The position numbers and the translations under genes are program-made. Source: Apostichopus japonicus (lineage: Eukaryota; Echinodermata; Holothuroidea; Aspidochirotida; Stichopodidae). From it: a stretch of 64,000 nucleotides of DNA. Below, piece by piece: positions 19,600 to 63,495 of this stretch (its first letter is position 1; every line of letters begins with the position of its first letter). The notes beneath the pieces were generated by a model. That model saw only the letters and a program-made list of their open reading frames with translations. It was not told the origin of the DNA and did no database searches. The DNA lies in the NCBI RefSeq assembly GCF_037975245.1, contig NC_092582.1:15083077-15147076 (forward strand), written 5' to 3'.

Positions 19600-19607
19600 C
19601 CAATGGT

Positions 19608-21629: not shown

Positions 21630-21635
21630 GTCAAG

Positions 21636-30600: not shown

Positions 30601-33600
30601 TATCGTTAAGTACACGTTATAAAGCATTTTCACCATTGTTTGATAATTGTTTCTTTGTCTGAGCTTAAGAAACAAAACAATCTCTTTTGTTCGACTACAT
30701 GTATGTCTTAAAATGACACTTAAGCGTTCTTTCTCAAGATTTTAAACTTTGTAGATTTACCATGCTAACGTAAACACAGTGTTTTAAGATACAAAATGAT
30801 TTTGGGTTTCTTATTTACAATACATAAACTGATTTTAATCTGCTCCAGTGTTTCCAGCGAAACAAAGTAACTGCCAAGTTAAACACTGCTCACGATACAA
30901 AGTACTGACTGGATAAAAGGAAAAAGAATGGGTAAAAGGAAAAAGAATGGATTTGAGAATGCATTATAACTGTCAGGATCTCCCTCAAAGACTGAGTTCG
31001 CGTCATTTTTGTTTTGCTCAATGAAATGTTCAGTAATTGATACACCTACTAGTATACTAATCTCATTATACCATTGGCCTATGTAGCGGGAAGGAATTTG
31101 AATAATTCAGGATGTTCTTGATTGTTATAGATTGGTTTCTTGTGGTATCTTAACTATTTAAACTGCATAATTTTTTTTACATGTGGTGAGCACTTTGCAG
31201 AAGAAAATTTGTATTGTATTGGCATTTCTTTACTCTGTGGAATGCTACAAATGTCATGTCACAAGGCACATATAGTCTGCATCGATATACAATTCATTAG
31301 GCCTACATAGGGCCGCATTGGGCCACCTATACTTTCTATCTGGTGGAACCTATGCAGAAGAAAATTTGTCTTGCATTGGCAGTTCTTTACTCTGTGGAAA
31401 GTACCTTTGCATTTAATATTGGTTTTGTGTGGTACCAACTATGATTGATCATGGCCCATTTGGGGGCCCCTTTTTAGTGTGTCTGTTAGCCCATTTGTAG
31501 CAGAAAATTTGTCTGGCATGATGATTTCCATAGTCTGTAAGATCAACCCGAACATTCCAAACCGGTTTTGAGTGGTACATTGCATATTTAATCTGGGTCA
31601 ATGCTACGCTAACGGGCATTTTGGGCCATATTTGGGGGCGTCTGGCGGGCCCTTAGCAGCAGAAAATTTGTCTGGCATGGGCCATTCAGTACTTTGTGGC
31701 ATTCATGCATTAAGTTGACATTGGTTTCAAGTGGTACCTCGTTCGTTTGATCAAATGCATTTTTATGGGCCCTTTTGGGGCGTCTGGCGGGCCCTTTGTA
31801 GCAGAAAATTTGTCTGGCATGATGATTTCCATAGTCTGTAAGATCAACCTGAACATTCCAAACCGGTTTTGAGTGGTACATTGCATATTTAATCTGGGTC
31901 AATGCTACGCTAATGGGCATTTGGGCCATATTTGGGGGCGTCTGGCGGGCCCTTAGCAGCAGAAAATTTGTCTGGCATAGGCCATTCAGTACTTTGTGGC
32001 ATTCATGCATTAAGTTGACATTGGTTTCAAGTGGTACCTCGTTCGTTTGATCAGATGCATTTTTTTAGGGGCCCTTCTTGTGCGTCTGGCAGGCCCTTTG
32101 CAGCAGAAAATTTGTCTGGCATGGGCCATTCAGTACTATGTGGCATTCATGCATTAAGTTGACATTGGTTTCAAGTGGTACCTCGTTCGTTTGATCAGAT
32201 GCATTTTTGGGCCCCCTTTAACCGGCCCCAGGGGCCACATGCAGCAGAGCGACCACGGCAGACATCCACTTTTGGATATACTGGGTTTTTCCACAAATGT
32301 TCCAATACTCAGATATTGGTACCTCGTTCGTTTGATCAAAGTGCACTGGGCTGCCAGTCTACAATGGGCAGTTTAACTTAAGTGCACAACTTCCACACTG
32401 AAGAAGGTAAATGATAAATGGTTTGATACATGCTCATACACCCAGAGAGAGCTAAAAATTGTAACCAACAAACTCAAGAATTTCAAACCTGATTCTAGCT
32501 GTGCCATATGAGAGTTTGAAGTTTTAAAAGAAGGAGAAAGTGTCCTCCTAACATACTTACCGATTTCAAAATCAGGAGGTTCAAATTTGGAACACCGCAA
32601 ATCCAATAACAGGCAAGGAATATCACCCGAAGGTTGTAAAAGATTTCTCGATGCAAGTTCATAGGCCTCTTGACTTTGTATATTGACTCCGGAATGCCTG
32701 GTTAAAAAAAGGAAAAGAAAAGTAAAGAGAGTGTTGCAGAAGGAATTGGTCGAAAGAGGAACGAAGGTAAACTGTAGGCACAACACTCCCCTCCCCAATG
32801 AATCTATTACTTGTGCTTGGAGGTTTTCAAACAAATGTACTGAGCAGATTTCAAGGATAAATCAACAAGAAGATTATAATTGGAAAGTAAAGCTTTTGAA
32901 GAACACCTCTGCTGTGATGCTTCAATAATAGAAATACTGTAGTTTACGTTCCATCAATCATTACTCTAGTTGGGGACATTGATGCTGAGATGAAATTTTC
33001 GACCATTTAAGTGTGCAAGATTTTTATATGTTACTGCATTTACAATGAAAGTTTATCGTTACAAAACATTGTGAACTTGCCATGAATTTTGTATACTTTG
33101 AACACTTTTTACCATCTTACTTGCTTTGGAGAGATTTTCACACTATCTGACTCTTCTAGCTTTTTAAGACATAACTAAGATAGCGTAATGTGGGAGTTTC
33201 TTGCTTGGCTGAGTCGTATCAAACATATCCATACTTTTATCAAGTCTTTATGTAAAGCTACCTTTCCTACCATAACGAGTTCCATTAAGACAACTGGGCA
33301 ACAAATCTACAACAGTGAGAATTGAATCAAAATATAGCAACATGTTGCAGTGCCTAATTAACCTGCAAAATCTTCTCACAAAACCTCAATACATCTGGGT
33401 GTCATTTCAGTCCAGACTGGTCAACAACTTTGTCTAAATGGCTTGTTCTGCCTGGAATCATTTCAACTTTTTACCCTTTGATGTTATCTAGCCCTGAAAT
33501 ATAAAGCAGATACTTTCTTTTCAAAGCATGTCATCTGATATCACTTTAAAAAGAGATATGATAAGATTCTCATCGAATAGTTTTCCAAACATGATTCTTT

Positions 33601-36599: not shown

Positions 36600-36608
36600 A
36601 ACTATAAA
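36600..36608. other. Left target-site duplication of the MULE
   Basis: AACTATAAA directly precedes the left TIR and is identical to 56594-56602 after the right TIR. A 9-bp duplication is characteristic of Mutator-like transposition. Confidence 0.93.
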
Positions 36609-36720
36609 GGAAGCCACTAAATACTAACCCTTACAGCGGGTCGAACCAATTCGAGTGCCCTCGGAACTCGGCTTCGGGTGCAACTGTGCTCGGCGCTCTA
36701 GGTTCCCGAATTACGTCATT
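36609..36720 (+). repeat. Left terminal inverted repeat of the MULE
   Basis: The 112-bp TIR is CpG rich and contains an ACCAATT (CCAAT-type) site and, at its inner edge, TTACGTCA, a CRE-like sequence. The transposase ATG is only 30 bases past the TIR, so the TIR probably contains the element's promoter. This is inference; no transcript start is visible. In the right TIR the CRE-like site is mutated. Confidence 0.9.
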
Positions 36721-36750
36721 GTTGCGTTGCATATTTATCAAGCGCACATC

Positions 36751-39700
36751 ATGGCCGGCATCGAGGATGGTGAACGTACGCAGTGCGATTGGCGTGAATT
36801 TTATTCTGAACGTAAAGATGATCACCTTGGCTTTGTGCTAAATAGGGCAAAATTCGAGGATTTAAAATGTGCATTCGAAGTTGGCACAAAGACGCACTTT
36901 GTCGCAGTGAAAACTTCGGTAAACTTTGGGCATACAGGTGAGTTTACCGTGGTTGTTGTGTCCTTATCAGGTCATCCTATACTCCATATTGTGGTTTAGA
37001 CCTTATGTTTAGACCATGGAGGAAGGAACACGATGTAACTTGATCATGTTGCAGCAGGCCCTAGCAATTAGCTTATCTGATCTCCCCTGATTGATTGGAT
37101 AAGGTGGTTCTTGTGTCCTTATCAGGTCATCCTTTCCCTCCATATTGTGGTTTAGACCTTATGTTTAGATCATGGAGGAAGGAATACAATGTAAATTGAT
37201 CATGTTGATGCAGGCCCTAGCAGTAGCAATTATCTTATCTGATCTCCCCAGATTGATTAAGCAGGGGCGTCGGAGCCGGTGCGGCAGGTCCGGCGAACGC
37301 CGGACCAATATTCACCGCGCAAAAAAGAAGAAGAAATAAAGTAGGACCCCCCAAAAAAAATGGCAACAAATAAAGAACCAAAATGAAACAAGCAAGTAGG
37401 CTAAATGTGACTACTCTGGCATGGCAGGGGTCTTGTTTTCAAGCTCGTGAAGTGCCATTTCCTGCAATCTGGGAGGCATTTTTTCAAAATTTCTACAAGA
37501 CGCTACGCGCCAACCATGGTGGCGCGTAGCGTAGTTTCACCTACCAAGCATCCCCCCCTATAATAATGATAGATGGCCACACTCTGATCTGCCGTACCAA
37601 TCCCAAATAGCTGCCGACGCCCCTGTTAAGGTGGTTCTTGTGTAATTATCAGGTCATCCTTCCACTCCATATTGTGGTTTAGACCTTTTGTTTAGACCAT
37701 GGAGGAAGGAACACAATGTAAATTGATCATATTGATGCATCTGTACATACATTTAGGCAGCGTAGACCTAGGGCTAGGCTACTCCATAATGTCCATGACA
37801 TTTCCTGATTAGGCTACATTTTTAAGAAAATAATCCAGTGCAATGTTTGATTTGTGGGTGATCATTGGTTTTGCAAAACTTGTGAACTTCATATGAACAA
37901 ATGTGGCATATGCATGCATGCATGCACCAACCATCACTTGAACTTGGATTTGTTGCAATTCATTTAACTTTCATGTAAATTAAAGTATGATTTCATCATT
38001 GTACAGTTCTCAAAGTCCATCTACCATTGCAGTTCTTTGTGCACGCAGTGCTATTGTCTTTACCATGTCTCAAAAACTTGTTACATGCTCATGCTTAAAT
38101 GACACAGAATGACCTTTGATATTCATTGCATTGCATGTCCACCCTTCATTTGACATTTTGATTAAATTAATTGAAAAAATTAAAACATTGTTTTCAACTC
38201 CTTCAGAGGTCAACCCACAACACCACCGATTACAGTGGGGTGATGAGATGTTTACTGGGCATCCCTATATTGTGTTGAAAGCTGTTCGGTATGAGTGCCA
38301 TCATGGACCAGACAGGAATGCTGCAAAGAAAGAGAAGGCGAAGAACAAGGTTGTATGCCAATCAACTGAAACTATGTACAATTACCACAATAACCAAAAA
38401 TGTTCTTGTGAGGTCTTTTGAAGTTTGGACTCGATGAAATACAGTCTGACCCCTCTCTTAGTACAAATGCCATTAAAAAGCCAATTACGTTTTTCACCAA
38501 TGCAACAATACAATTACGAAAAATGAATTCTTTGGAGGCAATTTATACACACAGTCCTGCATGAAACATCAAAATATTTTATACTGTCCATTATTCAGTA
38601 GCCTACATTTCTTTAGTAAATTTCTTTTGATATAGAAAACCTTTATCAGTGAATGAAATGCAGAGATGTATGTATTAGGACTTGTAAAATTAATGTAGCT
38701 TCCTTCAACATCTCTTTATAAGGTGGATGCATCCGATCACAATTACAAAAAAAAAAGGATGCGCTTGCAGCCCATGAAGAAAATCAACTGCCCCGCCACC
38801 ATTGTTGCAAAGGAGGTCATCCTGTTCCCTGACTTTGAGGTACTGTTCTTTTGTTAAAAAGTTTACTTAAAGTTGTTCTTAATTAAAGGTAGAATGTTAC
38901 TCGTCCATTTCGTACAAGGTTATCACTGCAGTTACAGTCTAATACCAATTATTCAAAAATTCTTGCTATGATGGTTTACCCATTCCTGTTTGTCATATGC
39001 CTGTCATAGTGATGGTTTGAAATTGCTGGCATGACACAGGCAAATTGGGTGGGTTGGTAGGTAAGGATTTTTTGTGTGTACGATTATGGTTTTGGCCGTT
39101 TTTTTTTCTTCACTTTTCCCATAAAATAGGGTAGGGCTGTCAGAATAGGAAGGTAGCATCCTTTTTATGACCCAACTCCACACTTCCCTGCTCCATAACT
39201 GTAGGGACTACATAGGGGTTGTCCAATTTTTAATAAGGGGACCTGAATACATTATGGGAACAGCAGAAAATCCCCATAACTCAGTCAAAAATTCCCTAAC
39301 AATGAAAAAAAATCTTCTCTATAATGCGCATACAAGGAGACATGCAGCACTATAGATCCCGCCAGGGGGTGGTTGACAAACTTTGGAGTATATGGTTGAA
39401 AAATCGTTTGAAATTGAGCAATTTCTGATTATTTTGCTTTGAACTTGAAAATGTAATGTGGAATCATGTTAGTATAAAATCTGTTACTACAAAATTCTGG
39501 TTATAACAAACATAAAACCTTATACCAACTTTGCATTTATTTGCACTATGAATGAGACTGATGTTCCGCTTAATACAAAACTCTGATGTAACAAACAATT
39601 TGGCTAGGTCTGAAGTTTGTTTTAAAGAGACTCAACTGTAGTAATACAGCTTCTTGTCAAAAAAAGAAAAAAAAAAAGGGCCTGTGCTCCTTAGTTAACA

Positions 39701-42700
39701 GGACACCCCTTTTTTTTTGAGAATCCTTAAAAAATGTTTTTAATTAATAAAAAAATGTTTTTACCACGTTTTGGGGACAAGTTGGCATGCTGCAAAGGAA
39801 AACAACGCAGGTGTAAAATATACATTGTTATGATTGAATATTCCATTCAATAGCTCGCAAAAAAATTGGCCAAGTAAAACAACTCTTCTGTGGCAAGAGC
39901 ATTGTCCAACATTTAGGACTTCCCCATTTATGCCGGTGAGTTGACAATGAGCATGTGGGACAGAACTATTTTTTGGAAGCTACTTCTTAATTTATAATGT
40001 GGTTTTGTCCTCACAGATAACTGGACTTTCTAAATGGAAGAGAGAGCAAATTTCCAAGGAAATTAAAACCAGCCTTGGAGTGGAAGAATGCACCATCAAC
40101 TGTCGGCGGAGAATATTTGTGAAGTTGCCCGCCGACAGCGAACACAGCTTTCACACCCAAGACATAGTAAGATCTTGACATGGGTCTTCGGGCACCATTT
40201 CTGTTTTATTTTTTTTTTAACCAATTCTTTAATGAATCTGCCCAGGCTGTATTCGACTTACATAATCACAGATTAATAATCAGGGGGAATAATCAGGGGC
40301 ACTCACTGACAGTCCCTGAAGTAGAAGCTCAGCAAGCTTCAGGGGAAACCCTTCCTGGGTGGACAGAGTCCCATGCCTCTTCAATTTTTGGAATCTTCCA
40401 AAGAATTGAACGTAAATTTTGATACTGCTCAAAATATTTGTCATGTATACAATTCCTGTGCATGTATGTAACAATCTTCATCCAAAACTATAACTTCAGA
40501 TACTTGTCTTATTTAAATCCACTTTTCCATTTAAAATGCACTTGCGTAATGTAGAAAATGACATTTTGAACATTTTCAGTACATGCAATTATCGTATAGG
40601 CCTACCCACATTTCCACTGCATATTTGTATACATGACTATTTACTCTTGATTTTCAGATTGAAGAGCTGTCAATGCCAATTGATCCTCGTATAACATGCA
40701 AGGTTCAGGAGTATGTCATGGAGGGATTTCAGTCCTCTGCTCTCATTAAGTCCCTCCTTGAAACTTACGTCAGGAAGGAGCTTTTTGCCGAGGAGAAGTG
40801 TCCATCATGGAACAACAGGAGGTTTTTCCCCACCCAACGGGACATCAGCAACATGATCTACTCGACACGTTTAAAATCTCTCAAGTCGAAGTATGACCAG
40901 GAGAACCTTCTTGGAAGCATTGAGGAGTGGAGGCAAGAAAGTCCGGAACACCGCTTCCATTTTGCTCCTGTCTTAGAAGACAAGATTGCTGATGAGGCCA
41001 GTAGTGCTCAGAGATCTGGGTCACTGTTGGTGTTTCAATCACAGTGGCAGAGGCACCTCCTGAGTAGATATGGAGGAGAGTTATGTTTGCTGGATGCAAT
41101 GTACCGCACTACCAAATATGCTGTGCCACTATTCTTCATCTGTGTAAAGACTAACACAGATTATGCTGTAGTTGCTGTTTTTGCCAGTCAGTTTGAAGAC
41201 AGCAACACCATAGTCACTGCCCTCAACATTATTCGTGAGTGGAATCCGGGATGGTCTCCATCGTACTTCATGGTGGATAACTGTGAAGCAGAGATTAATG
41301 CTCTAGAAAATACATTTCCAGGTACATGTTCATATTACAAAGCCACATTCTTTTTTTAGTGCATTTAAAAATTTCCAGCAATTAAGATTGTGAAGTAATT
41401 GACATGAACAGTTTTAGTTCTTTTTTACACTCCAAAACACACTCAAGGCTAAAATGTCAACAAAGTTGGACAAAGCGTGCAAATGCATCTTTCTATAACC
41501 ACAAAATAATGGCAAGATTGGCTTTTTCATTTTCTCTTGGTGTCTAGACTGTAAGGTGATTCTTTGTGATTTCCATCGGGAGCAAGCATGGATAAGATGG
41601 CTGAGAGCCTCAAAGCACGGCCTCCTCGGAGCTAGTGATGATATTTTGCTACTGCTGCAAAGGATTGCACAGGCTACAACACAAGAATCATACGATGCAG
41701 CTCTTGCTAAACTCCACGTCAGCTCATATTGGAGAGACAACAAGACCTTCAGGGAGTGGATACATAATACTTGGCTGAAGAATGCTCAGGTACTTGTTAA
41801 ATGTGAAACAGTTGTTTGGATGTCACAAAAATCGATTTCTCAGATTGTAAACCTGCAGGTTTCTGACACAATAGAATGCTGTAGGAGTACTGCAGTCCTA
41901 AAAGTGCTTGTATGAAGTACCAATAATGTATCTGGTGGCAGAGTGTTGGCAATGTGCAAACTTAATGTGAAATCCATTTTGCTTTTGCAGTAGCCTGGTT
42001 TTCATTTTTGAAATTATACGATTGACATTGAAAACCTTTCCTTTTTACAGTCTTAGAACTTACCAAGTGATTTGTTAAGTTAGTTATGGGTACCTGATGC
42101 AAAAGTCCGACACCAGTTCCAGAACCAGTGGTCAGGTAATTTGGTACCCAGTTATGAGTCATAACCCTTCTTTTGATTTCTTTTACCTATCATTGCAGAA
42201 GTGGGCATGGATTTACAGGCAAGATCGTTTTAACATGAAGATCAACACGAATAATGGCATTGAACGCCAGAATCGTACACTGAAGTATGAGTTCCTGTCC
42301 AGATTCACAGACAGGACCCTGACAGGAATGCTGACAACAGTAATCAAGAAATTTCTGCCAGAAATGCATAGAAGGTAATCGCTAAAGGAGATTATAGGAC
42401 AGTATTTCTACTTTTTAAAAGCGGTATTTGTTTTTTTTTAATCAGTACGTTGTCAAATTTTCCTGAAACAGTTTAGGTTGTGAGTAAAATTTACCGGTTC
42501 AGACTGTCTGATAGCATGACTAGGTTTATTGCAATTGGGACACAGAAACATGCTGCTTTGTTGTTGTATTTTAAAACCATGTGTATAATTTGTTATATCA
42601 ACCTTCATTGTCCATCGTTTCTCTGTTGTTTTTGTTTAAATTACAGGTACATAGAATGCAACCTGAAGGCAACCTCAGTGTACAGATCCTATAATGCTTC

Positions 42701-45700
42701 AATTCCAAGATTTCTCCAAAACAGGCCGAAAGAGTTCATCCTTCACTGTGTCAAGAGATTGTCCAGTGCAGAGGATTGTAGAATCCAGAGGGCCGGCAAC
42801 AGCTTCAAAGTGTGTAGCTTCTCTGAGCACAATAAGGAGTATGAAGTCACACTGGGAAATGATGAGTCAATCCCTTCGTGCCAGTGCTATGACTGGCTGC
42901 ACACCCACTGGCCTTGCAAGCACTTACTTGCAGTTGTCCTGCACCATCCTAGCTGCAGCTGGAATGACCTCCCAGAGCATTACCGGGAAAATCCCCTCTT
43001 CACTTTGGATGAAGTGTGTTTCGGAGGGTCCAACTTGAAGATGGAAGGAGACAATCCCAACGAAGGCATGGAAGTAGGCTCTTCCAACAGCCCAGAACCT
43101 CCACAAAGTGAAATAGGTGAAGAAAATGTCAAGAGTGAACCAAGCAGGAGTTCATTAGCATCTGCGATCAGGGAAGAGGTTGACAAAATCCGTAGTATTT
43201 CCTACCTTGACGTTCCTGTTGACATCTTGTCCAATGCCAAGCAGGAACTTGTGCGCATATCCAATATGCTCTACAGATCTGTGCCTAGTTCAAATGAGCT
43301 GCCAGTGTTGAACCCCGACGCCACTGTGAAGTCATTGGGCAAAATTCCATTTGGAATTAGCAAGTTAACAAGAGGCAAAGGCAAGTACTTGCATTATGTG
43401 CATTGATATATGGTTATCCCAGCTGATTTAATAGGTATTCAGGCCGGGAAAAAAAACGTGTTACTCGTGCAGGTTTTTTGAAAACAAGGAGGAAGCAGGG
43501 CTTTTTATTTTTTATTGATTCAAGATGGCCACCATTTTAAAATTTCCTGCAACAGTTGGTGTTTCCACTGTTCAAAGACACTTAAAAATGAAAGATAAGT
43601 TGGATAAGAGAACTGAACATATTTACAGGTCATTTAGACTTGTATTGGTCTACAATTTATTTTCCGATGAATTTGACTATTTTGGTGATTTTTTTAATGA
43701 ATTTTCAAAACTACAAATGATAATGAAATTCAGGCAGTCTCCAAAAAGGAAGGGGGGGGGGGGGGGACGAGAAACATGATTTTTTTTCTTACTTTGCCCT
43801 TATATATTCCTTTTTTGTGTTTTGATGATAATGTTTGTCTTGCAATTGATCACATTTAATATAACAGGAAATCCATGGTTTCTGTAATGTTAAGTCACCC
43901 TTTTCGCCCACTGTATATCACCCATACTGATTGTCTTGTTGAGAGATTAGATGTACATGTATCACTGTTCTGTTTCCATTTTTAATAGTTCGCAGACATG
44001 CTCAAACAGGCAAAGTGTTCAAGGACCTTCCTCTCAGAAAGAAGAAAAAACAAAAGAATGGTGAGTTTCACTAACAATTAGTAAATTAATGATCAAATAA
44101 TGTGCAATATTCTTCTTTTATACTCAAATAAATTGTTATTTATTGTATTGTTTATAAGCTTTGGGAGGTCAAATTTTTTGAAAACAGTCCACAGTGTAAG
44201 TGATGTGGAGTAAATTTCTCTATATAAAATAATGCTGTCTCTTGGCATCTGTGTACAATTTGTACAGCAGATGTTAATTATGTTACATCTGTTAGGAAGT
44301 TTAGCTTTGACAGGAAGGATGGCGCTGTCAAGAAGAACTGAGAAAACAAAAGACTTTTCTTTCAATTGTATTGGTTATATCGTGTGATTGGATTTTGCAA
44401 TTTCATTTCTAGTAGTCTGAATTACTTTGTGTCGAGATGATAAAAGCTGTGCAGATTCAATGCGTTCCATATGAATAAACCTCATATACTCTGCGTTCAT
44501 TGCGTGTGAGAATGCCTACAGATATCAAAGATTACACTTGAAGTTATTTTGTTTATTTCTGGCAAAGCAAGTGACAACCATTTATCTTTGTGTGTGCAAG
44601 AGATAAACAATTGTCGAACGTTGTGATGTGGGATATCATGTTTTTAAGCCGCTCTAGACATACAGCACTCTCATCTTTGTCTGTGTTGCTTTGTATAAAG
44701 ACGCCATATCCTTAATTATAGCAGGCAACAATGAATTTCATATATTTTTCAGTACTTGTTATAACTATGTTTTATTTTTACTTTTATCTTCACAACCACA
44801 CAGGCAAACAAGCACAGGTTTGTTATAAAAGCTACCGGTTTTCACTAGTCTCCACTATTTTCCTGTGTTTACACTTTAAAGGGAATATGCAACAGTTGCT
44901 TTTGGTGTATGTTTTTTAAATGGATGGATTTAGGGGTTAGTATTCTATAGCAAATATTGTTGAACTGACTTGATTTGAGTTTTGTGTTCATAGATGCTGG
45001 ATAAACAAAGAAAAACAATCAAGCTGTTGTTGTCTGACGAAACAGCAATTTATAGACATCAGGGAATTGTAAGGTCAGGGAACCAGTCTAAATGGCTTTA
45101 ATTCACTATAGGTGTACATGTAATCAATTGCAAACAAACTGCGGACTTAGAATTGTGGTAGGATAAATTGGGGGAAGTAAGTTGACGAAAAGTCAGTTTT
45201 TCACAATGTCGGTCGGCCAACACGCATTGGAAATTTATACAAAAATATCACTTTTCTTCAAAATGGCAGCACACCAGGTGCAACGATTTTACAGCGGTGA
45301 CTTTTCGCAATGGTTACCTTGTCTTAATGTTTTCAAATCTTGTATATTCCCTTTAATATTATTCCATGGTTTACTTCGCTTCCTCTGGTGTATTATATTG
45401 CTTGTACATGTACATAGCATGATTTGTGATGGGGTTTATGTTTCCATCAGAAGGTACAAATTGACTCCGCCTTGGTTAACCAGGGAGTTGTTATGGAACA
45501 ACTCCCTGGGTTAACAAAGACACTTATTTGAACATGGGCGAACATAAAATCAAATATCACTACACTTTAGACATGCCTTTTATGTTGGATGGAATAAGCG
45601 GTTCTTTGGTTCTGTATCTAGAACTGTGTATCCAACTGTTGGTGTGGGTTCAGTAACATACATTTTAGTTGCTCCTTCCGTGACTTATTTGGTATTCAAC

Positions 45701-48700
45701 ATTGCACATTCATGTTTCCTTTCTGCTGTATTCACTGATGGTGTTTCCACTAACGCTAACCCTGCCAGATGCATAAAAGTGCAACTCAATGTAGTTAAGA
45801 AGACTACCTGAATTTGATATGTAGTCTATAAGAGTATGGGCATAAACACCCAATAAGCCCAATTATGAGATAATACCTCTGCTGTGTATCGTAGTTACAG
45901 TATCATATTGACAGTAACAAATCTCTTATTTTTTCTAGATAGGGCTGCCAACCAAAACTCCCTGAATGGGTTAGCGTTAATATGTGTGCCATAGTTTCGG
46001 TGCTGGACCTTTCATTAACATATATTCACCCTGCTTTGTAGTGCTCTCAGCCACATTATTCTATCTTATTTTCTTTTATGGGAACAGCATATGTTCCTGT
46101 CCAGTTCATGTTGCAATATCAACTGTACTGGCCTGGAACAAGCTGCATTCTCTTCAGAATCGTCATTTTTCAAAAACGCAGCATCTCCTTTCTAACAACA
46201 TTGCTTTCGCTGAAATTTTGAGAAACCTGTTCGCAATGCACATCTTTAGCTTTGCTCTCCATACCTGCCTATGTGTATTCCTCATACATGTTTTTTTTTT
46301 TTTTTTGGGGGGGGGGGTTAAGTTTTCAGATTGTTTGTCCTGAAATTAATAAAGAAATAAGAAAAAAAAAGGTGAAAAAGCCCCCGCTCCCTCTCTCCCA
46401 TAAGAAAAACCCACTTTAACAACTAATCATTCATAACACATCAGAGCAAAGTGTTCCCGTGAGAACAGCAGGAGTGGGTTCCAAACAGGAACATGAGTTG
46501 TTCCATTCGGAACACTAAATGCTGGGAACAAGTGACAAAAGATCGGAATTAGCGAAATTCTCTTGTGGAGATTTTCAAATGGAACGTGAATGTTCCGACT
46601 TATAAGACGTTCCCTAACCCTACCTTCACTGACATTTTCAAGCGCCAATAAACTGTGACAATGCCAGAGGAGTTGGAGGTAAAATATTACTTTACGCTTG
46701 GCATCTGCAGCTATTACCTAGTCAGATTTGAATCACTTTTTTCCTTTATGCATGGTGGTTCAAAAACGGTTCTTTTTCAGAGGCATATTTCTCAATAATG
46801 GAGAGACATGTTGAAATTCTTAAAACTGCAAGATTTTGGTCCAGTATATGTTAAAATAAGGCCCAATTTAAGAATTGCAGCCATTAACAGAAAGTGGTAG
46901 CAAATTAATTTGAACTAGTCAATGGCAGTCTTGTAGACATCATGACATTATTGTAAAGCTGTTTACACAATATACAACAAAAATGCTATAGGTTAGGAAA
47001 TCTTAAAACAATTAGATCATGGTTCCCCTACCTCAAGAAATCTGCTTCTGAAAAGTTGTTAAGTTTTTGGGACCACCCTGTAGTGCTTGGTCATGGTCAT
47101 GGCCAGTTAGGGTTTAGCATTTCCTGTTCTTACGAGTGTCATAATGGCAACTTAAACTATTTTGTTTACATCTAATTTGAATTTTTATGACATTTTCGTC
47201 ATTCTGATTTATTAAAGTTTTTTTTTAGTTGGTAATTTTGAGGTGCTGCTTAATAATTACCAGAGAATTTGTGTTCATAAAATTGTGCTACGCCAGACTC
47301 ATCATGCTAAGCCAGAAAAATCATGCTCAAGCTGACATGTATTGCCTGTGCCAGCATGGAAATTAATATTAATGACAAATGTATCACACAAATCACACAG
47401 GAAGTGCGACAGCAATGGCTCCGGAGAATATGAATAGTGCTCCAGCAATGGAGACTGTGAAGCCATGTTTGAAGCAGAAGTCGGTCTGTCATCCTAGCAC
47501 AAGCACTTCAGGTATGAAGTCGGTATTAATGTACTTTCAAAGGAAAATGAATATGTTACAGTGTGTCAAGCTTCATGCAAAGGATGGTGGTGGTTGCCCT
47601 GTTTTTTGGTGGGGGGTGGGGTGGGGGTGGGTGGCTACTTCTTATGACAAGGTTTTTTCCCAAACTTTTAAAATCAATTGCGCATGTGAGATCTTTGTTT
47701 TTATTAACTCTTGTACAGCCAATTGAGATATATATATACCAAGCAAGCGATGCAATGCTAGCTTCAGGAAAAACTCTGCACGGACTGAAAGTCTTTGACC
47801 CAGCACAAAATACATCACACAAAATTGATTAACGTGTGTGTAGTTAGGTTGTAAGTGCATGCACTATCCGGAACTTATGTTGATTCAACTAGCGTTCGAT
47901 GGAAGAGTTTATGTGACTAGTGAATGAACAAAATATTTGAAACCACATGGTACAAGTGATATACTGAGTAGAATTTTTTTTGTAAATTCGCAGCTCCCGC
48001 AATTTTCCAACAGCGGCCTAAACATATGCTAAGTGCGAATCAGAAATCTGGCCAAAATCCTTCTTCTGAGTATTTTATCGTAAAAATTTTGTGTATCAGA
48101 GAGCTTACATTTTTCTTTACAAAATGCACATCTTCAGAAAAAATTAATGGAGACTAATGTAAAAGAGCTAGGTTTTTATTTGAAGCTATGCAGAACTAGG
48201 AAATATCCAGAACTAGGAAAACGAATGTACCCTGTAAAGAACCCAACCCTAACATTCAAATCCCCAAGGTGCTGTTGATTTATTGATAAAAGTCTGCACG
48301 ATAATTCTGTACCACATCTTTGTAGCAAGTATTGTAAGCTCTATGGCCTTAGCCAAACCTGCAACATTTGTAAGGTTCATAAATGTGAATAGTATTTTTG
48401 TAGAAAATGCCCCTTGCAAGCTTTCCTTTCATCGTCTGAGTTTGCTAAGATTCCCAGATAAATAATTTGAAATTAACTCCCGACATCAGCTTTGGGGCAC
48501 TGACTCAGGTACCCTTTTCCAATTCATAACTCTAATTAAGATCTGGACCTCCTATAAACTTAGAAATGATTATGCTGAAAAATCTTTGATGTAGCAGGTA
48601 TGCGTTGTCTAATGGTAGAAATTCAAGGTTAATGTTCATACTGTGTTACATTCCCATTTTTAGCAGAGAGAGGTGTGAAAAGAAAGGCACAACCAGCAGC

Positions 48701-51700
48701 CACGTCATGCCAAAAATCCCCTCTGCAAAGGTTTTTGGATGATCTCGTCAGTTGCCCAAGCAGAGTTCTTGATGTTTGCAGAGCCACTGAAGACTGCAAC
48801 GTATTGGCCACAACACCTATGTCAAGACGGTCGATAAGAATTGCTGCATCTGATCCGGTCTCTTCTCTGTGTTCAGAGATGACAAAGGAGCATGCTTTTG
48901 GGAGAATCAAGGAGGTTGTAGCTTCTCATATGAAGAAGAACTTCAAACCCAAACTCACAACCGAGACAGGTGATGTATGCGAGGTCACCGCATCCATGAT
49001 AACATTTGGTTTTATCACTGGTGTTGATGTTTTGAGTTTGTTGTCAACACTCCAGCAAGTGCCAAGGCAAGACTTTTTGGAGAATGCTGGAATTTCCTTC
49101 ACCCAGATGACAGCAACCAGCAGCACAAAAACACCAAGTGCCTTAACAGTTGGCAACACATCCTTGAAGCAGCAGGACCTGGATACTCTCAAAGGACAAG
49201 CTTGGCTGAATGATAAGGTAAATGATATGTTCAAAACGAGACACACTTTGGGAAGCATTTCTTCCTTCGGTAGTTGCCACCCTATCCATGTTATCTCCCT
49301 GGCTTTAGCCATGACGGGGGATATTGCAATAGTGTATTCGGTCCGTGTGTCTGTGCGTGTTTATGGTGTATATTGAGGACACACATCCAGAGCCTCTTCA
49401 AATAATTGAGGACAGAAATCTATCTAGGCTGACCCTGACAAGAAAATGTGTACAAAACCAATGAGAGATGTTGCAAAAAAAAGTTTAGTATAAACAAAGA
49501 AATGAAGATGAGGAACAATACAACAATATGCAAGTTTAACTTGCTTTATTTTTATAGTGGGGATTGTTTGAAGAAGATAACAAAATGCCTTGGATTGTTA
49601 ACTCTGAAGCACATGAATGTTTTTATGTACAAGTACATGTAGAATCAAATCTAGCACTTTATTCTTCTTTGGTTTTTATTATGCAGGTGATACATGCATA
49701 CTTACATCTACTTTCTCTACACGTGAATTCAAAGTGGCGCCACCATGTGTTCATCCTTCCATGTTTCATCACTTCACTGTGGCAGAGAAACAACTACAGT
49801 CAATGGCTGTTCCCAAGGGTATGAAGTTGTCCAAAACAAGTATTGAACAAAAACCCTTATTGTCCAATGGAGCCTTCGCTGTCTCCAGTCCAACGTCTGA
49901 TATATCTAAACATGCAAATTTATGTGACCCCGCGCACCTGCCAAACTGAGTTGACATGACATCATTTTAATCCAAAATATGGACTAAGCTGTTGATTTGT
50001 CAATTTGGGTGCCAAACATTTTTAATACAAACTAACAGGCATAGAGTAGAAACCTGATATTGGATTTAAAAACTTTCAAAATGCTGCACGTATAGCTCAT
50101 CGTGAGTGTGATGTGAACATGCAAGTGGTCATTTTGTATGCACATTATTTAAAATAGTATGTGGTGATCATTCTAAGAAACATGACTCTACATGAAACAG
50201 CTTATTTTTGGTAACATGATTCACAACGTAAAGCATAACACATATGTAGAAGAAGTCTTTTGGCATAATAATTGGCAAATCTGCTCGCATATTATAGACC
50301 CTTGCTGTGCAGAGTGATATACCATGGACTTCTGCCCCCCCCCCCCCCCTCTGACCAAAATAGTAAGGGGTTTTGGAATCTTATTTGGCTTTTTTGCTCA
50401 AATCAAATCAATGCTGTATGGCCCTATCTTGTGTGCTGTCACTTCAGGAAAATGGAAAATGATTGGGCATTGCCAAATGGGTAATTCAAAGTATGCGCTG
50501 TGCAGTGAAACAGTTAGAATTGTCTTTAAGGCATCTTTTTGCTTACATTGTCATTGAATGACACAACAGACTACCATTCATTAATTAAATATTTTGTTTT
50601 GCTTTTTAAGGTTGCATTTGCAAAGTACACCTGGATCTTGGTTCCTACATGTGTGAATGAAAACCACTGGACTCTACTTGCAGCAAACACAAAGTCCATG
50701 ACTGTAGGCATGCTGAATTCATTGCCAGGCTACGCCTCAACAGCAACAGAGTATCATCAACATTGGATGTAAATATTATCGTAACACTTTGGGCCAAATA
50801 AAATCTACATTCATAAATAAATATACCTTAGGAGGTCTATTCACAATGAACTTGCAATTTCATTATATAGTCTGATTCCTCAGTTTTTCAGGTGCCAACA
50901 AACAGTCAAATAGACAAAAGGAATGGTGTTTTATAACCAACATTTTCAATTGTTGTTAAAATACTTTAGGAACCTTTTTCCCTGACTGTCATTCAAAGGG
51001 TTATTCCTGGAGAAAATGAAACATTACCTCGATTTCCAGAAGATGACAATGGCATTTGGTTGGGGTTAATACTTACCTAGTAAGATAAAGGGTAGTCAAA
51101 TCATTTGATTTTTATCACTTGCAATCATTTTACAGAAAGTACACCAACTCCAGAGCAAAGGTATTAAATGAGACACCAACTGGCTGGTCATATCACAACT
51201 ACACGGTCTCTCATCAGACTGATGGCAACAGTTGTGGAGTATTTGTGCTGATGGTAAATATATTAACAGTGTACCTATTAGAATAAAACTAGAGGTTATG
51301 ATCAGTTTTTTGGGGGGTTAAAAATTGTACAAACTGGCAAAGTGAGGTTCTTGCTGCTGATTTGTCAAAATCGGCAGGATAAGATTTCTATGCAGATTTG
51401 TTGGGGTAGATTCCATCTTCTTCTTTAAGCATGTGGAGGTCAAGATCACCACGTAGTTCTTTAAACAAAGTAGGATATACATGTACTCATATTTGTTCCT
51501 TTATATATTTTCAGTTTGCTGAGCAGTTACTCCACAAGTTGACTCCGTGTATTCTACGTCAGTGCCACGTCAAAAAATTCAGAGAGTTTGCTTTGGCACG
51601 GCTGATTCACCATGCTAAGAAAGGCAAAGACCTGCTTTGTGACCTGCCATACTGTGACATTTCATCAGCGCCATCACAAAAGAAGATTATGTGGATGCAA

Positions 51701-51799
51701 TGTGACAATTGTGATAGATGGGTACACTACCTGTGTGCCAACATCACAAAGAAAGTGCCAAAATATATTTGTCTGTTGTGTCAGGCAATGGGTTATTAA
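36751..51799 (+). CDS. MULE transposase with zinc cluster, SWIM, Ulp1/C48 protease-like and PHD domains
   Basis: Fifteen exons join without a break to 1279 residues: 36751-36937, 38207-38349, 38723-38839, 40017-40166, 40658-41321, 41548-41789, 42199-42374, 42647-43380, 43989-44060, 47401-47511, 48667-49217, 49687-49818, 50611-50768, 51136-51253, 51515-51799. Domains in order: a Cys/His cluster (YECHHG, then NCPATI and HSFH, residues about 80-195) like the WRKY-GCM1 fingers of MULE and CaRF-type proteins; DDE transposase with D345, D406, C427-x2-H430 and E523; SWIM finger C638, C640, C650, H652; Ulp1/C48-like domain (WLNDKVIHAYL, H1112, Q1173, C1179); and PHD finger C1227 to C1274 with H1256. 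The usual protease Asp is Asn (N1129). Intron 8 uses a GC-AG pair. The ATG has a good context. Expected role: nuclear transposase acting on its own TIRs. The protease and PHD roles are inferred. Confidence 0.9.
36948..37740 (+). repeat. Three tandem units of about 155-165 bp in MULE intron 1
   Basis: The phrase around TTATCAGGTCATCC recurs at about 36963, 37118 and 37650, followed each time by CCATATTGTGGTTTAGACC and ATGGAGGAAGGAA. The last gap is larger because a 364-bp MITE interrupts the array at 37262-37625. Confidence 0.85.
37262..37625. mobile_element. MITE, 364 bp, nested in the MULE intron 1 array
   Basis: The ends are CAGGGGCGTCGG and CCGACGCCCCTG. The flanks share TTAAG (37257-37261 and 37626-37630), so the duplication looks shorter than the 8 bp of its relatives. 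Comparison with the intact tandem unit at about 37080-37110 shows where the uninterrupted sequence was. It is similar in style to the hAT-type MITEs at 11035, 12012, 19232 and 52017. Confidence 0.78.
44061..47400 (+). other. Intron 9 of the MULE gene, 3.3 kb
   Basis: This is the largest intron of the element gene. It contains a 41-bp hairpin at 45475-45515 and a T15-G11 homopolymer pair near 46290-46318. I see no internal exon that keeps the frame. The short ORFs here are not supported. Confidence 0.6.
45475..45515. other. Strong hairpin inside MULE intron 9
   Basis: The arms GTTAACCAGGGAGTTGTT and AACAACTCCCTGGGTTAAC pair almost perfectly around ATGG. The same core is found in RPL28 intron 1 at 22939-22977. 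It could be a mini-palindrome element or the junction of two inverted ends. Confidence 0.65.
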
Positions 51800-52016
51800 A
51801 AGCTATATAAAGGTACAGTACATCTGCATTTGTATTTTGTTGAAGTAACAAAAGTGCTAACAATCCAAGGAAGGGTGCTTAATGACTATAAAATCGAATG
51901 AAGTATCAGCTCAGTGAATGATGTATTTTCTCAGAAAATAATATTCAAGGATGACAATTTAATTCAAATGTTGTCAGGTCATGTTTTCAATAACACCAGA
52001 AATAGGCACCCACAAC

Positions 52017-52184
52017 CAGTGGCGTAGCCACGGGGGGCCTGGTGGCAACAGCCCCCCCCCAAAGAACCTTGTCTTCCCCCCCACTGAGATTTTGAATTTC
52101 TAACAAAATTATCATTGATCTACATGATGCCCCCATTGAAATGTTCCAGCGCCACCCACTGAAAAATTCCTGGCTATGCCAATG
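52017..52184. mobile_element. hAT-type MITE, 168 bp, in the MULE 3' UTR
   Basis: The left end is CAGTGGCGTAGCCA; the right end in reverse complement is CATTGGCATAGCCA. Flanks CCCACAAC (52009-52016) and TCCACAAC (52185-52192) are an 8-bp duplication with one mismatch. It lies 218 bp after the transposase stop codon. A candidate poly(A) signal AATAAA follows at 52291-52296. Confidence 0.85.
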
Positions 52185-52319
52185 TCCACAACACATTCTC
52201 AGTCAATTAATTGCAGCTAGGAGATGTCACACACTGAACTGCCCAACAATATCAACTGCGTGCATTCATTCACAGTTTCGCTTAATTTAAAATAAAACCT
52301 ACTAACAGAAATTTCCAAA

Positions 52320-55300
52320 GATAGATATATAAACGTTTAAAGCGGTACTTGCAGCTTGTAAATGTGAAATGTGAACCCAACTAGGTCTTCGTGGTTACTT
52401 GGCTCTATGTAATAACTTGTGAGACCTGCTACTTGATATGAAGATAGATATATTGGTTTGAAACAGTACTTGCAGTTTTTAAATGATATATGTACACCAC
52501 CAGGTCCTGGAGGTTAGTTGACTCTGTGTAATAACCTTTGAGACTTGCTACTTGATATGAAGATAGATATATTGGTTTGACACAGTACTTGCAGTTTTTA
52601 AATGATATATGTACACAACCAGGTCCTGGAGGTTAGTTGACTCTATGTAATAACCTTTGAGACCTGCTACTTGATATGAAGATAGATATATTGGTTTGAC
52701 ACAGTACTTGCAGTTTTTAAATGATATATGTACACCACCAGGTCCTGGAGGTTAGTTGACTCTATGTAATAACCTTTGAGACTTGCTACTTGATATGTAG
52801 ATAGATATATTGGTTTGACACAGTACTTGCAGTTTTTAAATGATATATGTACACAAGCAGGTCCTGGAGGTTAGTTGACTCTATGTAATAACCTTTGAGA
52901 CCTGCTACTTGATATGAAGATAGATATATTGGTTTGAAACAGTACTTGCAGTTTTTAAATGTACACCACCAGGTCCTGGAGGTTAGTTGACTCTGTGTAA
53001 TAACCTTTGAGACCTGCTACTTGAGATGAAGATAGATATATTGGTTTGAAACAGTACTTGCAGTTTTCAAATGATATATGTACACCACCAGGTCCTGGAG
53101 GTTAGTTGACTCTGTGTAATAACCTTTGAGACTTGCTACTTGATATGTAGATAGATATATTGGTTTGACACAGTACTTGCAGTTTTTAAATGATATATGT
53201 ACACAAGCAGGTCCTGGAGGTTAGTTGACTCTATGTAATAACCTTTGAGACCTGCTACTTGATATGAAGATAGATATATTGGTTTGACACAGTACTTGCA
53301 GTTTTTAAATGTACACCACCAGGTCCTGGAGGTTAGTTGACTCTGTGTAATAACCTTTGAGACCTGCTACTTGAGATGAAGATAGATATATTGGTTTGAA
53401 ACAGTACTTGCAGTTTTCAAATGATATATGTACACCACCAGGTCCTGGAGGTTAGTTGACTCTATGTAATAACCTTTGAGACCTGCTACTTGATATGAAG
53501 ATAGATATATTGGTTTGAAACAGTACTTGCAGTTTTTAAATGTACACCACCAGGTCCTGGAGGTTAGTTGACTCTATGTAATAACCTTTGAGACTTGCTA
53601 CTTGATATGTAGATAGATATATTGGTTTGACACAGTACTTGCAGTTTTTAAATGATATATGTACACAACCAGGTCCTGGAGGTTAGTTGACTCTATGTAA
53701 TAACCTTTGAGACCTGCTACTTGATATGAAGATAGATATATTGGTTTGAAACAGTACTTGCAGTTTTTAAATGTACACCACCAGGTCCTGGAGGTTAGTT
53801 GTCTCTGTGTAATAACCTTTGAGACCTGCTACTTGATATGTAGATAGATATATTGGTTTGACACAGTACTTGCAGTTTTTAAATGATATATGTACACAAC
53901 CAGGTCCTGGAGGTTAGTTGACTCTATGTAATAACCTTTGAGACCTGCTACTTGATATGAAGATAGATATATTGGTTTGAAACAGTACTTGCAGTTTTTA
54001 AATGATATATGTACACCACCAGGTCCTGGAGGTTAGTTGACTCTATGTAATAACCTTTGAGACCTGCTACTTGATATGAAGATAGATATATTGGTTTGAA
54101 ACGGTACTTGCAGTTTTTAAATGATATATGTACACCACCAGGTCCTGGAGGTTAGTTGACTCTATGTAATAACCTTTGAGACCTGCTACTTGATATGAAG
54201 ATAGATATATTGGTTTGAAACGGTACTTGCAGTTTTTAAATGATATATATACACAACCAGGTCTTGTAGGTTAGTTGACTCTATGTAATAACTTGTGAGG
54301 CCTGCTAAGAGATAAAGATAGATTATAGATATAATAGCGGTTTGAAACGGTACTTGCAGTTTTTAAAATGATATATGTACACCACCAGGTCTTGGAGGTT
54401 AGTTGACTCTATGTAATAACCTTTGAGACCTGCTACTTGATATGAAGATAGATATATTGGTTTGAAACAGTACTTGCAGTTTTTAAATGATATATGTACA
54501 CCATCAGGTCCTGGAGGTTAGTTGACTCTATGTAATAACCTTTGAGACCTGCTACTTGATATGTAGATAGATATATTGGTTTGACACAGTACTTGCAGTT
54601 TTTAAATGATATATGTACACCACCAGGTCCTGGAGGTTAGTTGACTCTATGTAATAACCTTTGAGACCTGCTACTTGATATGAAGATAGATGTATTGGTT
54701 TGAAACAGTACTTGCAGTTTTTAAATGATATATATACACAACCAGGTCTTGTAGGTTAGTTGACTCTATGTAATAACTTGTGAAATCTGCTAATTGAGAT
54801 GAAGATAAATATAATAGCAGTTTGAAACAGTACTTGCAGTTTTTAAATGATATATGTACACCACCAGGTCTTGGAGGTTAGTTGACTCTATGTAATAACC
54901 TTTGAGACCTGCTACTTGATATGAAGATAGATATATTGGTTTGAAACAGTACTTGCAGTTTTTAAATGATATATGTACACCACCAGGTCCTGGAGGTTAG
55001 TTGACTCTATGTAATAACCTTTGAGACCTGCTACTTGATATGTAGATAGATATATTGGTTTGACACAGTACTTGCAGTTTTTAAATGATATATGTACACC
55101 ACCAGGTCCTGGAGGTTAGTTGACTCTATGTAATAACCTTTGAGACCTGCTACTTGATATGAAGATAGATGTATTGGTTTGAAACAGTACTTGCAGTTTT
55201 TAAATGATATATATACACAACCAGGTCTTGTAGGTTAGTTGACTCTATGTAATAACTTGTGAAATCTGCTAATTGAGATGAAGATAAATATAATAGCAGT

Positions 55301-55545
55301 TTGAAACAGTACTTGCAGTTTTTAAATGATATATGTACACCACCAGGTCTTGGAGGTTAGTTGACTCTATGTAATAACCTTTGAGACCTGCTACTTGATA
55401 TGAAGATAGATATATTGGTTTGAAACAGTACTTGCAGTTTTTAAATGATATATGTACACCACCAGGTCTTGGAGGTTAGTTGACTCTATGTAATAACCTT
55501 TGAGACCTGCTACTTGAGATGAAGATAAATACAACAGTAGGCCTA
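52320..55545 (+). repeat. Minisatellite, 119-bp unit, about 27 direct copies, inside the MULE
   Basis: GATAGATATATTGGTTTG recurs every 119 bases (52443, 52562, 52681, 52800 and on), with shorter variants that lack about 10 bases near ATGATATATGT. Each unit contains CAGTACTTGCAGTTTTTAAA and CCTGGAGGTTAGTTGACTC. Variant units alternate in blocks, indicating block duplications. No coding sense. Confidence 0.93.
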
Positions 55546-56155
55546 CTTGCAGCTTTCTCATATACATGTGTTAACTTAAAATGTCGAGAATAAACCGTGA
55601 TATATTTGGATATTTGTGTATTTGTCTCCTATTTTCCCACTTTTACTTTTTAAAGGTTTTTAGAATCTCTCATCATTTTCAATACAATCAGACTATCGTT
55701 CTGTGTAAGTTGGCCTGGCCTATTTGAATAAAACTTACAAGAACAAACCTCTCGTTTGCCAAAATGAACATATTATCACAATCAAGGATGCCTTTGAAAA
55801 CGAGAAAGCAGGTCGATAACATTAAAGAGGCGTTTTCTTCCACAATTTCAGCCCCACCGTACTCCGGTATACCGCGATTGACCAACCTGGGCCCGTACCC
55901 TGGCCGGCCGGGTCCGCATGCACGCACCCGGCCGCGCCGGCCCAGTCGAGATACCAGCGTATGCGACCGACATCGCGAGCGGGACTTGGCCCGTCAACAC
56001 ATACGTGTTACACGAGCCCGTACCCGCACTTTACACGTAAATGTACAACATGTGTATGTACGTAGTTATGCAAAACTGTGAGGTCATTCTCGCTCGGGAT
56101 CCTTACCGATGAACCGAGCCGCTACGCAAAATTCACTTCAAACGTTTAGATCTAT
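55546..56155. other. CpG-rich spacer between direct and inverted minisatellites
   Basis: The central part (about 55845-56040) is far richer in CpG than the rest of the window. A 105-codon plus-strand ORF (55764-56081) is Arg/Pro rich and resembles no family I know. AATAAA at 55589-55594 could end a transcript. The segment could be an internal promoter, or host DNA captured by the MULE. Neither is shown. Confidence 0.45.
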
Positions 56156-56159
56156 CGTC

Positions 56160-56478
56160 ATTTCAAATAACAGGTCTCACAAGTTATTACAGAGAGTTAA
56201 CTAACCTCCAAGACCTGATTATTTTACAAATATCATTTAAAAACTGCAAGTACCGTTTCAATTTTTCAAACCGCTATAATATCTATCTTTATCTCGAGTA
56301 GCAGGTCTCACAAGTTATTACATAGAGTCAACTAACCTCCAAGACCTGGTTGTGTACATATATCATTTTAAAAACTGCAAGTACCGTTTCAAACCGCTAT
56401 TATATCTATAATCTATCTTTATCTCTTAGCAGGCCTCACAAGTTATTACATAGAGTCAACTAACTTCCGAGACCTGGG
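56160..56478 (-). repeat. Inverted minisatellite units next to the right TIR
   Basis: About 2.5 copies of the 119-bp family occur in reverse orientation, with blocks AGTTATTACATAGAGTCAAC, CCTCCAAGACCTGG and AAAACTGCAAGTACCG. They can pair with the direct array to the left. Confidence 0.9.
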
Positions 56479-56481
56479 CAA

Positions 56482-56593
56482 AATAACGTAATTCGGGAAC
56501 CGAGAGCGCCGAGCACAGTTGCACCCGAAACCGAGTTCCGAGGGCACTCGAAATGGTCCGACCCGCTGTAGGGGTTAGTATTTAGTGGCTTCC
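56482..56593 (-). repeat. Right terminal inverted repeat of the MULE
   Basis: The 112 bp are the reverse complement of 36609-36720 with about six substitutions and no indel. The outermost bases and the following AACTATAAA (56594-56602) match the left side exactly. Confidence 0.93.
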
Positions 56594-56896
56594 AACTATA
56601 AAGGGAGTCGTTGCAGCCTTCATGATAACAAAGTTAAAACTGATGCACCTCTCTGAGCAAAGTAAGAAAATATGCTTTTATTCTAGGCTTTGAAAACGTT
56701 TGGACAATAAAAAATATGAACAGTTAAAAATATGTACTGTCATTGCACATTGCTCAAACTAACATCTATATAGTTTTTCTTTTCCTTGTTGAGATATAAA
56801 CTATATTGATATCTTCATTTTATTGTGAAGATGCCATTGCGCATTTATCTGCGATTTTATTTAACACACACCATAGAAATTGATTAGGTTCTATGA

Positions 56897-59034: not shown

Positions 59035-59480
59035 CGGTTCATCATGAAATTGGTCTTCTCCTTCTTGCTTCGTAGATGATTCTTCCTCTTTCTTGCAAAT
59101 TTCTTTAAAGTTCAGGTCTGTTATATTTTGTCCCTGATAGTCCGGGGAATCTTGACACTGTTACGTGATTCTCAATTTCGTTCCTCAGGAACCATTCTTG
59201 TTAAGACTTCATAGCAATCGCATGACCACATGTTGTCCTTCAACATGAGGTCAGATTCGTACCTTCCTTCCAAGAATGTCTCAGGGAGACCAGTGAGGAG
59301 GTTATGTTGGATATTGAAAAGTAGAATGCTGTCCAGACCATTCAACGACATGGCGTGAGCAAAAGTGATGATATTATGGTCAAGATGAATCCACTTGAGC
59401 ATTTTATTCCTGACAAACGCTTTCCTAGGCAGAGTAGCAATACGATTGAAAGAGAGAGATAGATTTCGGCAGTAATAACT
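59035..59480 (-). pseudogene. Partial, decayed copy of the LRR receptor gene (copy A)
   Basis: The minus strand resembles the C-terminal third of the gene at 61831: KMLRWIQLDHN, NIQHNLLTGLPETF and DNMWSCDC equivalents are present. After DNMWSCDC the frame is lost by a likely two-base deletion; the correct frame continues with a TAA stop and then recognisable text. The N-terminal repeats and membrane anchor are absent. It is a non-functional duplicate. Confidence 0.82.
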
Positions 59481-61295: not shown

Positions 61296-61600
61296 TCACA
61301 CCAATACGCAAGGTAAGCCAAACAATACTTTCGGTTGATCGAACAATTGGTCTTCTTGTGTAGTAGACGATTCTTCCCTGCGAATTTCTTCAAAGTTCAC
61401 ATCTTTTATATTTTGTCCCTGATATTCCGGGGAATCTTGACACTGTACGTCATTCTCAATCTCGTTCTTCGGGGACCATTCTTGCGAAGACTTCATGGCA
61501 CAGTCACATGACCACATGTTGTCCTTCGAAATGAAATAAAATTCGTACCTTTCTTTCAAGAAAATTCCAGGGAGACCTGTGAGGAGGTGATGCCCATGGG
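61296..61600 (-). pseudogene. Partial copy of the LRR receptor gene (copy B)
   Basis: The minus strand reads LLTGLPGIFLKERYEF, then the LRRCT-like DNMWSCDCAMKSSQEW, and ends at a stop at 61296 after FGLPCVLV. It matches the C-terminal cap of the neighbouring gene but lacks all upstream repeats, the signal peptide and the membrane anchor. The cap reading frame is intact, so it could be a recent fragment; no start is apparent. Confidence 0.78.
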
Positions 61601-61830
61601 TTATAAACCTGTGCCTATACCTGTTCGAAACATCCCATTTCTTGAGTTATAAACGTGCCTTAGTTCCTTTGCAGTCGCTTCCCTTTTCTGGTTGATTGGC
61701 CACTGTATATACAGGTTATTGTAAGCAAGACAAAAACAGGTACGGTTATACCACAAAAAGAAAATCATGTTCGCATTAAGTTAAGAGAAACATTAATTTA
61801 CTGAGAATAATACATAAAGGACACTTTTCT

Positions 61831-63387: not shown

Positions 63388-63439
63388 AATGGGTTGATCT
63401 GAAAGACTGAAAATGACAAAACTTTCTATAGCTACTATA

Positions 63440-63495
63440 GATATGTATCCATCCATCCATCTAACTATTAATCCATCCATTCATTCATTTATTAT
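63440..63495. repeat. ATCC/ATTC microsatellite
   Basis: The stretch contains short CATC and CATT repeats upstream of the LRR gene. From 63500 to 64000 nothing else was recognised. Confidence 0.7.

Follow-up and report, generated by a model that had tools for sequence, protein, structure and literature searches.

Among Mutator-like transposable elements (MULEs), those named Rehavkus are described, in the available text of PMC6446971, as having a 9-bp target-site duplication (TSD), terminal inverted repeats (TIRs) of 26-400 bp, a PHD finger and a minisatellite before the 3' TIR. Very few are known, from Repbase only, and their hosts are arthropods and annelids (PMC6446971, same portion); that portion contains none of the words ulp1, protease and als2cr8. 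Other animal MULEs, such as Muta1 of Aedes and several arthropod families, have a DDE/MULE core, TIRs and TSDs of 8-10 bp (PMC5225508, in the sections available). The 322 complete arthropod elements of PMC13359780 measure 1.4-10.0 kb, and the words PHD, ulp1, intron and minisatellite are absent from its main text as accessible. In plants, some MULEs contain ULP1-like regions, in which the C48 domain is treated as captured (PMC2528002, available part).

Here, we analyse a window of 64,000 nucleotides of the Apostichopus japonicus genome (C22:15083077-15147076), which contains an element at positions 36609-56593. Like Rehavkus elements as described in that portion of PMC6446971 (including Rehavkus-1_TC of Tribolium), it has a 9-bp TSD, TIRs within the 26-400 bp range, a PHD finger and a minisatellite, but it is 20 kb long, resides in an echinoderm and encodes SWIM, ALS2CR8 and C48 domains, none of which is listed there for Rehavkus. 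It shares the DDE/MULE core, TIRs and TSD size with the other animal MULEs, and a C48-type protease with the plant MULEs, except that here this domain is spliced into the transposase frame alongside the PHD finger. Judged from its sequence, the element is very probably a full-length, cut-and-paste transposon of the Mutator superfamily, of Rehavkus-like build, moving itself and short derivatives. Our literature search returned no paper joining ALS2CR8 with a transposase, and no earlier report of the order ALS2CR8-DDE-SWIM-C48-PHD (Repbase Reports and most subscription journals lay outside this search).

Element ends and target site

The features that delimit the element, and its internal repeats, are as follows.

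36600..36608, no strand: left TSD, AACTATAAA
36609..36720, plus strand: left TIR, 112 bp, matched in the genome search
52318..55531, no strand: minisatellite, 119-bp unit, 27.1 copies, preceding the 3' TIR
56171..56477, no strand: subterminal repeat, unit of about 131 bp, 2.4 copies, inverted relative to the minisatellite
56482..56593, minus strand: right TIR, 112 bp
56594..56602, no strand: right TSD, AACTATAAA

The first-pass annotation had called 36609-56593 a complete Mutator-like transposon with two 112-bp inverted termini of about 95% identity, free of indels, and an exact 9-bp target duplication. All of this is borne out: the two TIRs are 95% complementary and align without gaps, AACTATAAA directly abuts the element ends GGAAGCCACT...AGTGGCTTCC on both sides, and the frame between them is open. 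The 9-mer AACTATAAA occurs three times in the window, the third time at 9311. The features by which the Mutator superfamily is recognised, i.e. a TSD of 8-11 bp, TIRs and a MULE-type DDE transposase, are all present.

Transposase gene and protein domains

The predicted gene consists of 14 exons separated by 13 GT-AG introns of consistent phase. Its coding sequence of 3,726 nt translates into 1,241 amino acids with a single terminal stop.

36751..51799, plus strand: transposase gene (basis: phase-consistent exon model, selection test, exon 9 search)
36751-36937, 38207-38349, 38723-38839, 40017-40166, 40658-41321, plus strand: exons 1-5
41548-41789, 42199-42374, 42647-43384, 43996-44060, 48667-49217, plus strand: exons 6-10
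49687-49818, 50611-50768, 51136-51253, 51515-51799, plus strand: exons 11-14

A gene open at every junction had been proposed previously. The frame is indeed open throughout, but with 14 exons and 13 introns in place of the 15 and 14 given earlier, either exon count being a prediction from sequence. A further exon was sought between 41790 and 42199 and proved unnecessary; the phase-consistent chain has 14. Splicing exon 8 straight to exon 10 is out of phase; an exon 9 was therefore sought, and 43996-44060 was the best of three candidates above the splice-score cut.

Pfam was run on two spliced parts, exons 1-8 and exons 10-14. The domains lie in the order ALS2CR8, DDE/MULE RNaseH, SWIM, ULP1-type C48 protease and PHD.

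38207..40880, plus strand: ALS2CR8 domain, residues 66-267, exons 2-5 (PF15299, E 4.8e-40)
40658..42374, plus strand: DDE/MULE RNaseH-like part (PF21056, the ZSWIM1-3 RNaseH-like family, E 8.7e-12; PF10551, MULE, E 2.3e-10, 41.2 bits against a cut-off of 27.6 on the spliced N-terminal half)
42647..43384, plus strand: exon 8 with SWIM zinc finger (PF04434, E 2.8e-8)
49107..51799, plus strand: C48 (ULP1-type) protease part (Peptidase_C48, PF02902, E 1.1e-13, 51.9 bits against a cut-off of 20.7), then PHD finger in exon 14; exons 10-14

The PHD match (PF00628) is borderline, scoring 23.9 bits (E 4.2e-5) on the spliced sequence and 24.2 bits on the exon frame against a cut-off of 24. The structural traits described for Rehavkus are all present in the element, the PHD finger narrowly so. 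Kinship with Rehavkus is likely, as judged by published trait descriptions. The ULP1-type and PHD domains, the minisatellite and the likeness to Rehavkus had gone unremarked in the first-pass annotation.

For the DDE domain, we propose D345, D406 and E523 as putative catalytic triad; these were assigned by eye, and their positions are those of the model. The catalytic set of ULP1/C48 cysteine proteases is His-Asp-Gln-Cys. The window protein contains the motifs NENHW and QTDGNSCG, while the Asp position reads MLNSL, i.e. Asn (window 50611-50768). Asn is also found there in two further relatives on contigs C11 and C17 (L064 and L065, both ILNSL), whereas a diverged family on contig C16, described below, has Asp (ILDSM, L056). 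Since the Asn recurs in two further relatives, it may be tolerated.

Other copies in the genome

The genome (671.6 Mb in 35 contigs) was searched with the left end of the element. The first-pass annotation had held that a lack of further TIR copies would argue for an old domesticated locus; at least 37 TIR matches were found, these counts being lower bounds: the two ends in the window, two that belong to a second full-length copy on contig C5 and 33 other loci. Both ends could be read at 26 of these 33, which are derivatives of 0.6-3 kb or similarly short. The 23 short copies read in one piece span 614-3,044 bp and gave no match to the coding sequence. Those inspected, in the parts listed (L012-L015 and L025), consist mostly of TIR and subterminal repeats. 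The closest pair of short copies is 99.4% alike over 981 bp, and no identical pair was found. At C17:22013233 lies a decayed remnant of coding sequence, 94% alike in part and interrupted by stops. A compound copy was observed at L014:8142-9061, where a further stretch of 63 bp past the right TIR corresponds to the other terminus found in short copies.

The search revealed no more than two full copies, that of the window and that at C5:16220273-16241590 (L009-L011). The latter is 21,318 bp long and in reverse orientation, with intact ends and exons. It has no TSD, its flanks being TGCGTTGAT and TTATTTTGC; a rearrangement is a possible reason. The minisatellite counts 27.1 units in the window copy versus 32.7 in the C5 copy.

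We compared the two full copies using the gene model before exon 9 was included, so that exon 9 is tallied as non-exon in the figures that follow. The exons differ at 18 of 3,661 sites, with no indel, versus 148 of 11,928 sites and 35 indel events in the other DNA before the minisatellite (p 4e-5 for the difference in rate), which sets noncoding divergence at 1.2%. The exon changes comprise 10 synonymous and 8 nonsynonymous ones (pN/pS 0.22, p 0.0014, by simple counting). Together, the lower divergence of the exons and this ratio argue that the frame was under selection. Exon 1 has five of the nonsynonymous differences and no synonymous one, making it the least secure exon of the model: it is either free to vary or wrongly modelled.

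The element had been claimed to be autonomous now or recently. The second full copy, derivatives up to 99.4% alike and selection on the frame support "recently", and the element was probably mobile in the recent past. Whether it is an intact but now silent element, i.e. a recent mover that has been silenced or that lacks a working domain, is a different matter, and we regard this as a substantial possibility. The 1.2% noncoding divergence of the full copies, the lack of an identical pair among those found and the Asn at the C48 Asp position would all fit such silence, while the frame, intact in both full copies, and the recurrence of the Asn in two further relatives speak against it.

A diverged family on contig C16

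A diverged family is represented by C16:26198624-26220627 (L055-L058), a 22,004-bp element with ends GGTTCTCACTCAATC, TIRs 80% alike over 80 bp and a 10-bp TSD, ATTCTCTCAC. Its protein matches that of the window at 37% in the first DDE part, 32% in SWIM and 36% in PHD. The C48 region matches at 29-39% over three pieces, which lie in separate frames, with breaks at the same residues as in the window exons (by eye, between WLNDK and V, and after FVLM). The order of domains is common to both families, and a minisatellite (115 bp x 50) again precedes the 3' end. A copy of about 11 kb on contig C6 is flanked by the TSD GTTGTGGAAC; thus, both copies of this family with two flanks read have 10-bp TSDs. 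Further TIR matches were observed on C6, C11, C16, C3 and C22.

The existence of this family bears on classification. The element could belong to a MULE group of another animal lineage, e.g. near Phantom or the SWIM-bearing groups, and have gained PHD, C48 and minisatellite independently. The Rehavkus row in the available part of PMC6446971, with a PHD finger only, no SWIM and arthropod and annelid hosts, leans that way, as do aphid Phantom elements, also listed there with a minisatellite after the transposase frame. We nevertheless consider this reading unlikely: a TSD of 9-10 bp, a PHD finger and a minisatellite before the 3' TIR co-occur in both families of this genome, and this is the Rehavkus set as given in the same portion. 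A domesticated host gene that still bears transposon ends, its protein kept for host use, would account for selection on the frame and for the finding of only two full copies, but is highly improbable given that these two lie at different places, that at least 33 further TIR loci exist, that the TSD in the window is exact and that the related full-length C16 family has a TSD of its own.

Two diverged families in a single genome, 20 and 22 kb long and each complete with its ends, gene and minisatellite, would settle how such elements are built, with ALS2CR8, DDE, SWIM, C48 and PHD joined in one intron-rich gene. This would bring the group within reach of the yeast assays employed for Muta1. The Pfam matches also suggest that the ALS2CR8- and ZSWIM1/3-type domains of animal genes might have a transposon source.

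Proposed transposition mechanism

For a full-length, Rehavkus-like Mutator-superfamily transposon, the following sequence of events can be envisaged. Binding to the TIR, and possibly also to the subterminal repeats, would fall to the ALS2CR8 domain. The DDE triad would cut the ends and attach them to the target strands at positions 9 nt apart, and gap filling by the host would generate the 9-bp TSD. SWIM and PHD could provide further contacts with DNA or chromatin, and C48 might strip SUMO/ubiquitin-like marks or process the protein. Short copies retain the TIR and repeats and would be mobilised in trans. Repeats related to the minisatellite form much of the short copies, which fits a role of the minisatellite and these repeats as a candidate array of binding sites. 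The observations that we count against this explanation are the absence of a TSD at the C5 copy and in 8 of 28 copies, the borderline PHD score, the C48 Asn, the pattern in exon 1 and the number of full copies, two.

Irregular target-site duplications

TSDs were tallied for 28 copies with both ends, 26 short and 2 full. L020, L028, L029, L031, L038, L043 and L048 were left out as the second end was not found in the stretch read, and so was L047, which has one end. An exact 9-bp TSD is seen in 12 of the 28, a duplication of 9 bp on one side and 10 bp on the other in 8, and none, by the rule applied, in the remaining 8. In the last class, L019 and L039 resemble, by eye, TSDs with 2-3 extra bases, and L014 is included though its right end continues into the second, 63-bp element end. 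For L022, which has an exact TSD, an unoccupied counterpart lies in the flank of L012.

In seven of the eight 9/10 cases (L013, L015, L016, L027, L034, L035 and L044), the additional base may be taken for a second copy of position 5, the centre of the TSD; in L015, L027 and L044 the doubled base lies within a run, so its place is ambiguous. The long side is the left one in three of the seven and the right one in four. In the eighth copy, L036, the extra base is at the outer edge. Under even placement over nine positions, the probability of at least seven of eight at the centre is 1.4e-5, a value calculated post hoc. L034 was registered one base inward, its first element base being altered, and its 9/10 reading depends on this register.

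Chance as the source of the irregularity was set aside: when left and right flanks of different copies were paired, neither a TSD nor the 9/10 class appeared in any of 756 pairs, and no TSD differing by one substitution only occurs among the 28 copies. Loss of a base from a 10-bp target was likewise rejected for L034, and for L034 only: the unoccupied sequence in L048 has a single 9-bp GTTGTGTAG, so that the additional base arose there during insertion or later, a comparison independent of the one-base register. Assembly error is a possible source of irregular TSDs.

We tentatively put forward, as a doubtful explanation, that the doubled central base is a scar of the transposition cycle, left by a break half-way along the TSD, with an overhang of one base, after abortive, one-ended excision. 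The break would fall 4-5 nt outside the element and would be filled in and rejoined. Were this correct, cutting both TSDs at their midpoint and rejoining the ends would regenerate an exact empty site, providing a simple basis for the precise excision reported for MULEs. For Muta1, about 90% precise excision with TSDs has been reported, and cutting outside the TIR suggested (PMC5225508, in its available sections), which suits the one-ended-cut reading.

In a milder form, the repair polymerase would instead slip half-way across the 9-nt gap, and we regard the two forms as an either/or. Liu and Wessler, in 2017, reportedly placed hairpins on the flanking DNA in the MULE mechanism; if valid here, this would shift the odds away from a break in the centre of the TSD and towards a slip during gap filling. 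The set of insertion scars may be informative about cutting by MULEs and about repair by the host.

Genomic neighbourhood and other observations

The first-pass annotation places the element at the TRUB2 promoter. A minus-strand ATG lies at 36501, 99 bp from the left TSD, and the neighbouring gene may be TRUB2-like. Searches of Pfam, NCBIfam and PDB with pieces of it gave no TruB match, and identification by profile was dropped. Insertion beside TRUB2 is plausible.

Towards the far end of the window, 61834-63480 on the minus strand encodes a 549-amino acid leucine-rich-repeat protein in one open frame, and similar-looking fragments lie at 59175-59480 and 61299-61646. Elsewhere in the assembly, the 16,099-base contig C35 is mitochondrial and carries COX1 close to its start. 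Translated by table 9, in which AAA stands for Asn and ATA for Ile, this COX1 includes GGFGNWLIPLMIG and RMNNMSFWLIPPSF; we take this code, by eye, to be that of echinoderms. COX1 is followed by what are presumably ND4L, COX2, ATP6, COX3, ND3 and the start of ND4, also named by eye. Besides mitochondrial C35, contig C29 has COX1-like pieces in several fragments at about 14745-31219.
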